Notes under the pieces: model-generated
The model's input: the letters and a program-made list of their open reading frames with translations, nothing else
Database searches by the model: none
Told to the model about the DNA's origin: nothing
Program-made: the position numbers and the translations under genes
Part shown: in pieces, positions 822 to 5,282 of the stretch
How positions within the stretch are numbered: position 1 is the first letter of the stretch
Layout of the letters: each line of letters opens with the position of its first letter
From: an uncultured Spirochaetales bacterium
GTDB taxonomy: Bacteria; Spirochaetota; Spirochaetia; Sphaerochaetales; Sphaerochaetaceae
DNA: 64,000 bases
NCBI GenBank assembly: GCA_949285785.1
Contig: CASEAG010000002.1
Span: forward strand, 1-64,000
Direction: 5' to 3'

Positions 822-3242
822 TCACCTCGTCGGCGTGCTCGCCCAGTACAGGTCGCATGTCCTCAGCACGGCCTTGAACGTCTCTAGCGGGATGTCGTCT
901 TCGCTGAAGAAAGTGACGGTCTTCTGCGCCGTCGGCCTGATGGAGAACAGGTTCTCGCTGAACGTGCCCCTGAGATCTCCGGCGTCGAGATACACCTGGA
1001 ACGCGGGATGGGTGCAGCTGACGGTGCAGGTGAAGTTGCGTCCGGTCTTCACGACATCCACCTTGAGCAGAGGATCCACGAAGCGGCACCTCTTGGGCTC
1101 CTCCAGGAGCACCAGATCCTCGCGGTAGATGTCCGGTGTGGACAGTTTCACATAGGCGAAGGCTTCTGTGCTGTTGCGTATGAAGGACGTGTACTCCGTG
1201 CTGCAGACCGCCGTGAGCGAACGTGGTGCAAGCACCTTCCTGAAGACCTGCATCTTCAGCTTCTCGCCATGGAACGAGGAGAACTTCAGCGAAACCTTGA
1301 CCTCCTGCTCCTCGTTGCCGTCGTTCAGCGCCATGACGGTCACATGGCCGTCTTTGCGCAGGCACAGCGTCGTGACCGGGGCATAGATGTTCCTCATCTG
1401 GTACATCAGCATCTTCCACTTGCCGCTGTGCTCGATGGCGCTCTCGTCCGCGGCGGGATAGCCCGAGACCAGTGACTTCATGAACAGCCCCATGCATCTG
1501 GCCCCGTGGCTGCGGTAGCGGTCGACCATGGAGGATATCGTCTCGGCCTGCACCAGCTGGGACAGGTAGATCATCTTCTCCAGACTGTCCGGGAAGCGGT
1601 AGTGGACTAGTATCGAGGAGACTATCAGGGAGAATGCACCATGCATGCTCTGGTGCTTCATCATGCTGTCCGTGGCTATGTTGAGCTCTCCTTCCTCGCA
1701 GTAGCGTCTGACCGTTGCAAGGGATGGAATCGACGGGAAGGAGAAGGACGACACGAAGCGAGGCACCTCGTCATCCCTCTCGAGAATCTCGAGTGTGGAG
1801 TTGTCCTGGCTGTACGAGAGGCCGTATGAGGCTTCCGGGTGTTCCCTGACCGTGGATGAGATGTCTTCAACACCGGAATGCGGGACATAGACCAGCGAGG
1901 GGGCGTACCTCTTCATCGCGGTTTCTATCAGACCGTTGTTCAGCCGGTCGTATTCCACCGCCTCCCGCATCGTGAGCCCGGGCAGGGAAGGCGAACCTCC
2001 GCCGCACATCAGCACGATGGACGGATGGCTCTTGAGCCGTAGTATCTGGTACTCGAGCTCCTGTTCGACCTCCGTCCTGAACTCCTCCGTCTGCGGATAT
2101 CCCGCCTCGTCGAACATGAAATCCTGCCAGACCATCAGCCCCAGCCGGTCGCAGCTGTCGTGGAACACCTCGCTCTCATATGCGCTTGAGCAATGCACCC
2201 GGACCGCGTTGAAGCCGACCTGGACCGCGCTCTGCAGAGCCCTTATGCATCTGGTCGGGCTGATCGTCGAGGCCAGCAGGTCAAGACCGGTCCATATGAC
2301 GCCCTTGACGAAGACCGGCCTGTCGTTGATGAACAGCCTGAAGGACCGGCCTCCTTCGTCCGGCTCGTTCTCGAGACGCACGGTCCTGAACGCTATCATG
2401 CGCTTGTCGCTGTGTGATGCGAACGATATGTCCATCGGATAGAGGTGCTGGCCTCCCAGCCCAACGGGGTTCCAGCGTGCCACATCCTCCTCGGGGATGG
2501 TGAAGGTGAAGGAGTAGCAGCCCAGCATGGGGGACACATGCGTCGTCGTGCACTCATGGCGGCCGGCGATGGTCACCGCGAAGTCCACGTCGCACTCTCT
2601 GAACACCTTTGCGGTGATCTCCACCTTCATGATCCAGTTGTGGTCCACCAGGCGTGGAATGCAGTTCCAGCTGTGGACGATGAGCGTGTCGTCCATAACC
2701 AGCCTGACCGGTTCATAGATCCCCACGGGGGTTATGGAGTAGGGGCCGAAGTGGCGTGCGCACTTGCGCACCAGGGCCTGGCGCGGTACCCGAGGAGATT
2801 GGCTCTGGCGCCTGTCCAGCTCGTCCTCAAGCGAGTCGAAGACGATCTCGATGGTGTTCTCTCCGTCGTGCAGGGCTCCAGTGATGTCGAACATGTGGCG
2901 GGCGAATGCATTCGACATGCGTCCTACGGTCCTGCCGTTCACGACAAGCGAGGCGAAGGTGTCCACCGACGAGAGCACGAGCGTACATGTGTCCGTCGGT
3001 TTCCCGCTGAGTGCGACCACTGTCGTCAGCGACCACCGGCAACGGGATATGAAGCGGCTCGTGAGGGCGTTCTCGCCCTTGTACGGATCTTCTATGAATC
3101 CGGCTTCATGGAGCGCGCTGTGCACGTCGAACGGCAATGTGACCTCCACGCTCTTCCCGCACAGGTCCGGGCAGTCGGCCCTGAGGATATCTTCATCCAG
3201 GCACCTGAGCGTCCAGGGGCCTTCAAGCACTATTGTCTTCAT
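822..3242 (-). CDS. GH2 beta-mannosidase-like protein lacking both catalytic glutamates
   Basis: An 806-residue protein with the architecture of GH2 beta-mannosidases: an N-terminal sugar-binding jelly roll, an immunoglobulin-like middle, a TIM barrel from about residue 300 and a C-terminal beta region. The barrel is recognised by V-W-Q-D-F-M-F (371-377) and R-L-K-S-H-P-S-I. The expected acid/base motif G-N-N-E reads G-G-G-S (414-417) and the expected nucleophile motif S-E-F-G reads S-S-F-S (498-501), so both glutamates are serines. The usual R-V-W-G-G-G reads R-V-H-C-S-S. The frame is intact over the full length, which argues against simple decay. No signal peptide is seen, so it is probably cytoplasmic. 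The ATG follows a TATACT box by 7 nt with no ribosome site; the longer upstream open frame is a shadow of nadE. Function is unknown; carbohydrate sensing is one possibility. Confidence 0.8.
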   Translation of the reverse strand: MKTIVLEGPWTLRCLDEDILRADCPDLCGKSVEVTLPFDVHSALHEAGFIEDPYKGENALTSRFISRCRWSLTTVVALSGKPTDTCTLVLSSVDTFASLVVNGRTVGRMSNAFARHMFDITGALHDGENTIEIVFDSLEDELDRRQSQSPRVPRQALVRKCARHFGPYSITPVGIYEPVRLVMDDTLIVHSWNCIPRLVDHNWIMKVEITAKVFRECDVDFAVTIAGRHECTTTHVSPMLGCYSFTFTIPEEDVARWNPVGLGGQHLYPMDISFASHSDKRMIAFRTVRLENEPDEGGRSFRLFINDRPVFVKGVIWTGLDLLASTISPTRCIRALQSAVQVGFNAVRVHCSSAYESEVFHDSCDRLGLMVWQDFMFDEAGYPQTEEFRTEVEQELEYQILRLKSHPSIVLMCGGGSPSLPGLTMREAVEYDRLNNGLIETAMKRYAPSLVYVPHSGVEDISSTVREHPEASYGLSYSQDNSTLEILERDDEVPRFVSSFSFPSIPSLATVRRYCEEGELNIATDSMMKHQSMHGAFSLIVSSILVHYRFPDSLEKMIYLSQLVQAETISSMVDRYRSHGARCMGLFMKSLVSGYPAADESAIEHSGKWKMLMYQMRNIYAPVTTLCLRKDGHVTVMALNDGNEEQEVKVSLKFSSFHGEKLKMQVFRKVLAPRSLTAVCSTEYTSFIRNSTEAFAYVKLSTPDIYREDLVLLEEPKRCRFVDPLLKVDVVKTGRNFTCTVSCTHPAFQVYLDAGDLRGTFSENLFSIRPTAQKTVTFFSEDDIPLETFKAVLRTCDLYWASTPTR

Positions 3243-3249
3243 GACATGA

Positions 3250-3279
3250 AGTATAACAGGGGACGACAGGGAGGGACAA
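3250..3279 (-). promoter_or_regulatory. Leaderless-type promoter of the GH2-like gene
   Basis: TTGTCC, 18 nt, TATACT, then 7 nt to the ATG at 3242. No Shine-Dalgarno fits in this space. Confidence 0.6.
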
Positions 3280-3392: not shown

Positions 3393-5282
3393 ATGAGAGA
3401 TGGATACATAAAGGTCGGCTCGGTGAGCCCGCATGTCATAGTCGCAGACACGGTCTCCAATGCCTGCAGGACTGTCGAACTGGTCCGCAAGGCGGATGAG
3501 AAGGGTGTGAAGGTGCTCGTCTTCCCCGAGCTGAGCCTGACGGGCTATACGCTGGGGGACCTTGTGTTCTCCTCCGATCTTCTGCAAGGTGCCATCAGGG
3601 CGCTGGAGAAGGTGTGTGGCGAGACCCGGGATCTGGATGTGCTGGCGGTGGTCGGACTTCCGCTTCAGGACCATGGCAAGCTGTACAACACCGCTGCCGT
3701 CATCCATCATGGACGCGTCCTGGCGTTCGTGCCGAAGGCGAATATCCCTTCCTATGGCGAATTCTATGAAGGACGCTGGTACGAGGAGGCCTTCGAGGGT
3801 GTGCGCAGCGTGCGCTTCGAGGACTACGACGTGCCGTTCGGCCGCGACATCATCATCCGCACTCCGCTTCCTTCGTCGTTCGCCCTGTCCGTGGAGCTGT
3901 GCGAGGACCTGTGGGTTCCGCAGAGTCCTTCCGTCTCCCATGCCCTGGCCGGGGCCACCGTCATCGCCAATCTGTCTGCCAGCGATGAGCTGATAGGCAA
4001 GGACGACTACAGGCGGGGCCTCGTGAGGATGCACAGCGCCCGGCTGATCTGCGGCTACATATACGCCAACGCGGGCGAGGGGGAGAGCACGACCGACATG
4101 GTGTTCGCCGGGCATGGCATGATCGCGGAGAACGGTACTCTGCTTGCCGAACAGATCCTGGCTGGAGAGAATATCCTGGTCAGCGAGATCGACACCTCGC
4201 ACCTCGCCAGCGAGAGGATGAAGCACACGACATTCCATAGCCGCGACGTGTGTCAGCATACTACCGTCTGGACCCGTTTCGACGAGTGCGAGACGTACCT
4301 TACGCGTACATACCCACGTTTCCCGTTCGTGCCGCGTGACGAAGGCGAGGTGGCGAAGAGGGCCGAGAGGATAGTCACTCTCCAGGCCCTGGGTCTCCGG
4401 AAGCGGCTTGAGCACACGGGATCGAAGGGCGCCGTGGTAGGGCTTTCCGGAGGTCTGGATTCGACCCTGGCGCTCCTCGTGACGGTCAAGGCGTTCGACA
4501 TGCTGTCCCGCGACAGGAAGGACATCCTCGCCATAACGATGCCATGCTTCGGCACGACGAAGCGCACCAGAAGCAACGCGGAGATCCTCGCCACGGCGCT
4601 CGGCGTCTCGTTCGAGGAGATCGACATAACCTCTTCGGTGAGAAGCCATTTCAAGGACATCGGGCAGAAGGGGGATGTGTACGACGTGACCTTCGAGAAC
4701 GCGCAGGCCAGGGAGCGCACCCAGGTCCTGATGGACAGGGCCAACATGACGGGATCGCTTGTCATCGGCACGGGAGACCTGTCCGAGCTTGCGCTCGGAT
4801 GGGCGACCTACAACGGCGACCACATGAGCATGTATGCGGTCAATGCATCGGTTCCGAAGACGCTGGTGAGACATCTGGTGCACTGGTTCGCATCGTGCGA
4901 CGCCTCCTGCCGCGACGTGCTTGAGGACATCCTGGACACCCCGGTTTCGCCTGAACTCCTTCCCGCCAACGAGGACGGGACCATAGCCCAGGTCACCGAG
5001 GATCTGGTCGGGCCGTATGAACTGCACGACTTCTTCCTGTACCACTTCGTGCGTGCATCGTTCTCCAGGGAGAAGATAAGGAGAATCGCCTACAGGACGT
5101 TCGATGGGGTCTACGACAGGACTGTGGTGGACAAGTGGCTGGACAACTTCTTCCGGCGCTTCTTCAGCCAGCAGTTCAAGCGCTCCTGTCTGCCTGACGG
5201 TCCCAAGGTCGGCTCCGTGACGCTCTCTCCACGTTCCGACTGGAGGATGCCATCCGACGCCTCGTCAGCACTCTGGAGGTAG
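3393..5282 (+). CDS. nadE: Glutamine-dependent NAD+ synthetase
   Basis: A 629-residue two-domain enzyme that makes NAD+ from deamido-NAD+, ATP and glutamine. The N-terminal nitrilase-type glutaminase (residues about 1-290) shows the Glu of F-P-E-L-S-L-T-G-Y, the Lys of F-V-P-K-A-N and the Cys of V-E-L-C-E-D-L-W. The C-terminal synthetase has the PP-loop V-G-L-S-G-G-L-D-S-T and the late G-T-G-D-L-S-E-L-A-L-G-W motif. Length matches the long bacterial form. The start is placed at the ATG 7 nt after a TACAAT box; there is no ribosome site. Its 3' end overlaps the convergent acetyltransferase gene by 18 bases. The gene supplies cofactor and needs no partner in this neighbourhood. Confidence 0.96.
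   Translation: MRDGYIKVGSVSPHVIVADTVSNACRTVELVRKADEKGVKVLVFPELSLTGYTLGDLVFSSDLLQGAIRALEKVCGETRDLDVLAVVGLPLQDHGKLYNTAAVIHHGRVLAFVPKANIPSYGEFYEGRWYEEAFEGVRSVRFEDYDVPFGRDIIIRTPLPSSFALSVELCEDLWVPQSPSVSHALAGATVIANLSASDELIGKDDYRRGLVRMHSARLICGYIYANAGEGESTTDMVFAGHGMIAENGTLLAEQILAGENILVSEIDTSHLASERMKHTTFHSRDVCQHTTVWTRFDECETYLTRTYPRFPFVPRDEGEVAKRAERIVTLQALGLRKRLEHTGSKGAVVGLSGGLDSTLALLVTVKAFDMLSRDRKDILAITMPCFGTTKRTRSNAEILATALGVSFEEIDITSSVRSHFKDIGQKGDVYDVTFENAQARERTQVLMDRANMTGSLVIGTGDLSELALGWATYNGDHMSMYAVNASVPKTLVRHLVHWFASCDASCRDVLEDILDTPVSPELLPANEDGTIAQVTEDLVGPYELHDFFLYHFVRASFSREKIRRIAYRTFDGVYDRTVVDKWLDNFFRRFFSQQFKRSCLPDGPKVGSVTLSPRSDWRMPSDASSALWR

Follow-up and report, generated by a model that had tools for sequence, protein, structure and literature searches.

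The gene at positions 825-3242 (minus strand) of the window, that is, the whole stretch of 64,000 nucleotides that was analysed, encodes a predicted inactive homologue of the GH2 beta-mannosidases (806 aa), and we think it reasonably probable that this protein is a pseudoenzyme retained for what its C-terminal domains do without catalysis, in binding or as a scaffold, after two losses of catalysis from an ancestor at the nadE locus. What marks it as a pseudoenzyme is homology to an enzyme family with the catalytic residues lost, together with purifying selection on the gene.

The open reading frame runs from an ATG at 3242 to a final sense codon at 825, with the stop codon at 822-824, and its assignment relies on the ORF, on Pfam and on a PDB sequence search, whose hits are GH2 beta-mannosidases with E values down to about 4e-58. 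The frame stays open upstream to 5045 (a mechanical ORF of 1407 aa), the extra part being antisense to nadE; we set the start at 3242 and not further upstream because the homologues begin there, and M1 is conserved in all nine inactive congeners, in agreement with the ATG at 3242. Pfam detects Glyco_hydro_2_N2 (PF22666, E = 4.3e-27) and Ig_mannosidase (E = 2.7e-15) in the 806-aa protein and, together with the predicted fold, gives the domain order of GH2: a jelly roll, an Ig-like domain, the barrel and two C-terminal Ig-like domains. The N-terminal jelly-roll domain (residues 31-166) is encoded at 2745-3152, the barrel segment with both former catalytic sites (residues 381-505) at 1728-2102, and the C-terminal Mannosidase_ig and Ig_mannosidase domains (residues 621-800) at 843-1382, all on the minus strand. 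The divergent neighbour on the plus strand (3393-5282) is an NAD+ synthetase-like gene, named nadE from its sequence, which serves here as the marker of the ancestral locus. Just upstream of the gene, at 3250-3279 on the minus strand, lie two promoter-like elements, TTGTCC and a TATACT preceded by TG, spaced by 18 nt; the region has two promoter-like sites of that kind, where chance would give 0.9.

The AlphaFold2 model of the protein (mean pLDDT 84.6, pTM 0.88) superposes on solved GH2 beta-mannosidases (VIA Z 35-37 over 763-783 residues, Foldseek TM-score 0.88-0.90), with low confidence at the barrel mouth (block means of 44-79 for residues 411-540 and 54-75 for residues 571-610). The protein is 22-24% identical to the GH2_13 exo-beta-mannosidases, namely the Xanthomonas GH2 exo-beta-mannanase (6BYC/6BYE), Bacteroides Man2A (2JE8) and mouse MANBA (6DDT), and resembles them in length, domain order, predicted fold, the Arg of strand beta-2 and the C-terminal Ig_mannosidase domain. 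Unlike these enzymes, it lacks the nucleophile Glu and the NE motif, its pocket Trp and Gly residues are replaced, and its sister-genus relatives mostly lack the catalytic part of the barrel.

The catalytic positions were assigned by alignment to the Xanthomonas mutants 6byg and 6byi (E477A and E575A), whose titles give E575 as the nucleophile and E477 as the acid/base. This alignment bears out the original prediction of a GH2 beta-mannosidase homologue with both catalytic Glu residues changed to Ser: Ser417 (1992-1994, minus strand), preceded by Gly where the active enzymes have the NE motif (416-417), stands opposite E477, and Ser499 (1746-1748, minus strand) opposite E575 of the Xanthomonas enzyme. 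A comparison of homologues showed that the loss is common to nine species, but not Ser itself: position 417 is Ser in three species, Tyr in three and Glu, Cys and Arg in one each, and position 499, the site of the invariant nucleophile on loop 7, is Ser in eight and Ala in one. Ser for Glu is thus no fixed feature of the inactive clade. Assembly or sequencing error was rejected as a source of the substitutions, as nine species agree.

The predicted change of RVWGGG to RVHCSS was likewise confirmed, at residues 348-353 (2184-2201, minus strand), where Arg348 is kept and Trp350 has become His. Further along the alignment, KSLVSGYPAADE (residues 589-600; 1443-1478, minus strand) replaces WQLNDNWPVASW, with WQLND changed to KSLVS (589-593) and ASWS to ADES (598-601), and the residues that surround the sugar in active enzymes (W350, G352-353, N415-416, D593 and W600) are also replaced in the window protein. 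A Trp near the C2/C3 hydroxyls is specific to the beta-mannosidase subfamilies (PMC12243196); in this column, assigned by motif only, the protein has His350 (Asp in one species), and in the column of the strand beta-2 Arg, also assigned by motif only, Arg348 is found in all nine inactive species. The WQDFM motif, like Arg348, is largely kept in the inactive congeners. The nucleophile Glu is described as invariant in GH2 (PMC12243196) and, judged on this defining residue as aligned, the window protein is a descendant of GH2_13 and not a working member of it. We infer that it would not hydrolyse glycosides and that the GH2 mechanism would be impossible for it.

We then examined the spread of the gene among relatives. 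It is present in 12 of the 16 genomes of the window's genus and absent from the others. The original prediction turned on close homologues in sister genomes being without the Glu residues, and the congeners divide on this point: nine, among which are the nearest homologues (50-84% identity), have neither the nucleophile Glu nor the pocket motifs, but three (G001, G005 and G007, 44-45% identity) are fully intact at the same nadE locus, with both Glu kept. Both residues are at least 95% conserved among 22 active relatives within the family and are found in 119/119 homologues examined outside it (40 from other Spirochaetia families and 79 from genome-contig records, mostly Alphaproteobacteria), so that no inactive form occurs among these 119. 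A sister genus (g10) of the same family, probably the Sphaerochaetaceae, has a related inactive protein of 348-801 aa, a few of these lengths being possibly shortened by contig ends, in 34 of the genomes fetched. Most of the inactive g10 proteins lack approximately residues 381-505 (about 120 barrel residues, with both catalytic positions), residues 601-800 are present throughout, and in the short forms sampled Pfam still detects Ig_mannosidase and mostly Mannosidase_ig as well.

About half of the inactive g10 genes, as well as the active gene of G029 from the same genus, are divergent from nadE and arranged as in the window; because of this shared arrangement, we place the active, inactive and barrel-less forms at one ancestral locus. 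The active nadE-locus enzymes (G001, G005, G007 and the sister-genus G029) resemble the window protein in their position, in about 33-45% identity and in six C-terminal residues including R707, and differ from it in keeping both catalytic Glu and all of the pocket motifs. The linkage to nadE is explained by shared descent. The neighbours gave no clue to a partner: nadE is the only stable one, and the gene content on the opposite side varies, with small heat-shock genes in the window and in G008 but TRAP transporter genes in G011. In the window, that side (1-591) holds two consecutive Hsp20-like small heat-shock genes, convergent to the gene, the first of which is cut by the contig end; the pair is also found in G008. 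In one further genome, G045 (L135 and L147), an inactive short form coexists with a GH2 beta-mannosidase that is distantly related to it and has both Glu, and hence the inactive protein does not depend on the absence of the enzyme.

The tree unites the 12 proteins from the window's genus in a clade (SH-aLRT 100), inside which the nine inactive ones form a clade of their own (100), and it groups the inactive g10 proteins separately (99). A tree in which all of the inactive proteins were constrained to a single clade was worse by 52 log-likelihood units, and their single origin was rejected in the AU test (p-AU 0.013). Catalysis was therefore lost independently in the window's genus and in the sister genus, although this p value is also the limit to which one loss with later replacement can be rejected. 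A pair of proteins of about 705 aa in genus g13 (G082 and G083; L163:4243-6354 and L164:4856-6976) also lacks the catalytic motifs; the branch that carries the pair is very long, at 2.5 changes per column, and of unsure placement, and by its sequence the pair is possibly a third independent loss.

To describe selection on the gene, dN/dS was obtained by Nei-Gojobori counting, and weight was given to close pairs only, as distant pairs are saturated at synonymous sites. Between the window and G008, its nearest species, the gene has a dN/dS of 0.142, compared to 0.109 for nadE, 0.103 for polA and 0.080 for a metallo-beta-lactamase-fold gene; together with the loss in nine species, this upholds the claim that the gene is under selection despite the lost GH2 mechanism. 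Over the inactive pairs, dN/dS is 0.10-0.26; in the sister-genus short forms it is 0.05-0.13, and the barrel-less pair G041/G046 has 0.051 vs 0.052 for nadE. Across 43 inactive proteins, 33 positions are at least 97% fixed.

The distribution of this constraint within the protein has changed. Relative to nadE, dN over the whole gene is 1.4-2.2 in inactive congeners vs 0.6-0.8 in active ones. The rate of residues 381-505 is 0.16-0.33 for active pairs but 1.3-3.0 for inactive ones (about 8-fold higher) and that of residues 506-620 rises from about 0.26 to 0.8-2.2, whereas the last Ig-like domain goes from 1.0-1.2 to 1.0-1.9, so that constraint is reduced 2-8 fold in the barrel, is relaxed about two-fold in the N-terminal domain and is least changed in the C-terminal domains. 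The lowest pairwise identities among the inactive congeners are those of the N-terminal domain (0.46) and residues 381-505 (0.49), and the C-terminal domains are among the highest (0.67 and 0.64); the active enzymes show the reverse ranking, with the barrel leading. Of the columns that vary among active enzymes, 49/142 in the C-terminal domains are invariant in the inactive congeners, vs 24/129 in the barrel (p = 0.004). In summary, the protein is maintained by purifying selection, and constraint has shifted to the beta-sandwich domains, mainly the C-terminal ones.

Six C-terminal residues (K653, K661, Y697, K699, R707 and R769), whose span at 936-1286 (minus strand) encodes the proposed binding face, show no variation among the inactive proteins of the two genera (43/43) or the active nadE-locus enzymes (4/4), and are much less regular in the 25 other active enzymes listed, where R707 is mostly Ile, Val, Glu or Leu (G076 has Arg). 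Since they persist in proteins that have lost the barrel segment, contact with that segment is not the reason for their conservation. They alternate with hydrophobic residues along the predicted strands and, as read from this pattern, are likely exposed on one face. The net charge of the C-terminal domain pair is near zero, and an anionic ligand is hence only one option.

These observations would fit an ancestor common to the two genera that was a catalytically competent, probably cytoplasmic GH2 beta-mannosidase beside nadE. The nine-species clade of the window's genus would have lost its catalytic residues and most of the sugar pocket once, on its stem, with the full-length protein kept; in the sister genus, the same loss would have occurred independently, and much of the barrel would have been removed there. 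Selection may now act on a function of the beta-sandwich domains, which are non-catalytic, and chiefly of the two C-terminal Ig-like ones; this pair probably binds a partner (a protein or an anionic ligand) via the face of K653, K661, Y697, K699, R707 and R769. We infer both binding as the mode of action and a second role older than the loss of catalysis. Against this explanation, the invariant Lys and Arg residues could be structural, the C-terminal domains kept their constraint without becoming more constrained, and relaxation by about two-fold is seen in the N-terminal domain too. More tentatively, and with a little less than an even chance, the GH2 beta-mannosidases of this lineage may already have been bifunctional, with a second job in the C-terminal Ig-like domains, catalysis being lost at least twice and the barrel cut away stepwise in one genus.

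A rather unlikely alternative is that the old pocket was re-lined (His350, Ser352, Ser353, His455, Glu459, Ser476, Asp599 and Glu600) as a new active or binding site, which would make the protein a new enzyme or a sensor of a different ligand. Thirteen formerly invariant barrel columns do carry a different residue that is fixed in all of the inactive congeners compared, and Arg348 is kept; however, these re-fixed columns (13/73) are no commoner than invariant ones among ordinary variable barrel columns (24/129, Fisher p = 1.0), which demoted the new active site as a candidate. Moreover, segment 381-505 is among the fastest-evolving and is mostly deleted in the sister genus, and the barrel mouth is where AlphaFold2 confidence is low.

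We consider it unlikely that the protein binds or senses glycans with the ligand site of the barrel kept and only cutting lost, as the original prediction had proposed. The predicted fold is intact (TM-score about 0.89), with Arg348 and WQDFM largely kept, but the residues surrounding the sugar were replaced too, so that this part of the prediction is not supported, given the lost sugar site, the roughly 8-fold faster segment, re-fixing at background level and the parallel loss of the barrel segment in the sister genus. GH130 and GH26 mannan genes were found in none of the 16 congeners searched, and the idea of a remnant mannan pathway was rejected on the same absence.

That the protein is still a glycosidase, using some other residue or the substrate as the nucleophile in an unusual mechanism, is very unlikely: active GH2 subfamilies with a substituted acid/base residue are known, for example GH2_21 (PMC12243196), but the nucleophile Glu, invariant across GH2 in the same source, is Ser or Ala in all nine species here, and no replacement carboxylate is constrained beyond background. 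That the gene is a functionless relic in slow decay is extremely improbable: it evolves faster than its active congeners and is absent from several genomes of the genus, but it is open over about 800 codons in nine species, with the low dN/dS values and the 33 fixed positions given above.

Pseudo-glycosidases that kept the fold, lost catalysis and took on a binding or regulatory role include the Klotho proteins, the chitinase-like CHI3L1 and heparanase 2. Unlike the window protein, these are animal proteins of other GH families, and to our knowledge none of the known pseudo-glycosidases has the barrel cut away in its relatives. No earlier report of inactive GH2 beta-mannosidases was found in the open-access literature. 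As a rule, a pseudoenzyme is encountered alone, as an end product. At this locus, related species carry active, full-length inactive and barrel-less orthologues, and with two independent losses it can be tested directly whether a second function or the loss of catalysis came first. If the bifunctional ancestry is true, the barrel-less protein shows what the second job needs, and the locus offers a natural series from an enzyme to a pure binding protein. To annotate these bacteria as beta-mannosidase producers from the sequence of this gene alone would be an error in no fewer than nine species of one genus and in 34 genomes of another.

Two minor observations concern the surroundings of the gene. 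In G011, the polA side of the locus has a HEARO RNA (HNH endonuclease-associated RNA and ORF, RF02033, 88.3 bits) nearby, at L153:958-1182 (minus strand). Six of the nine inactive congeners have a contig that stops approximately 100-400 bases from the 3′ end of the gene, and the window contig ends 0.8 kb beyond it, which suggests a repeated or hard-to-assemble element downstream of the gene.
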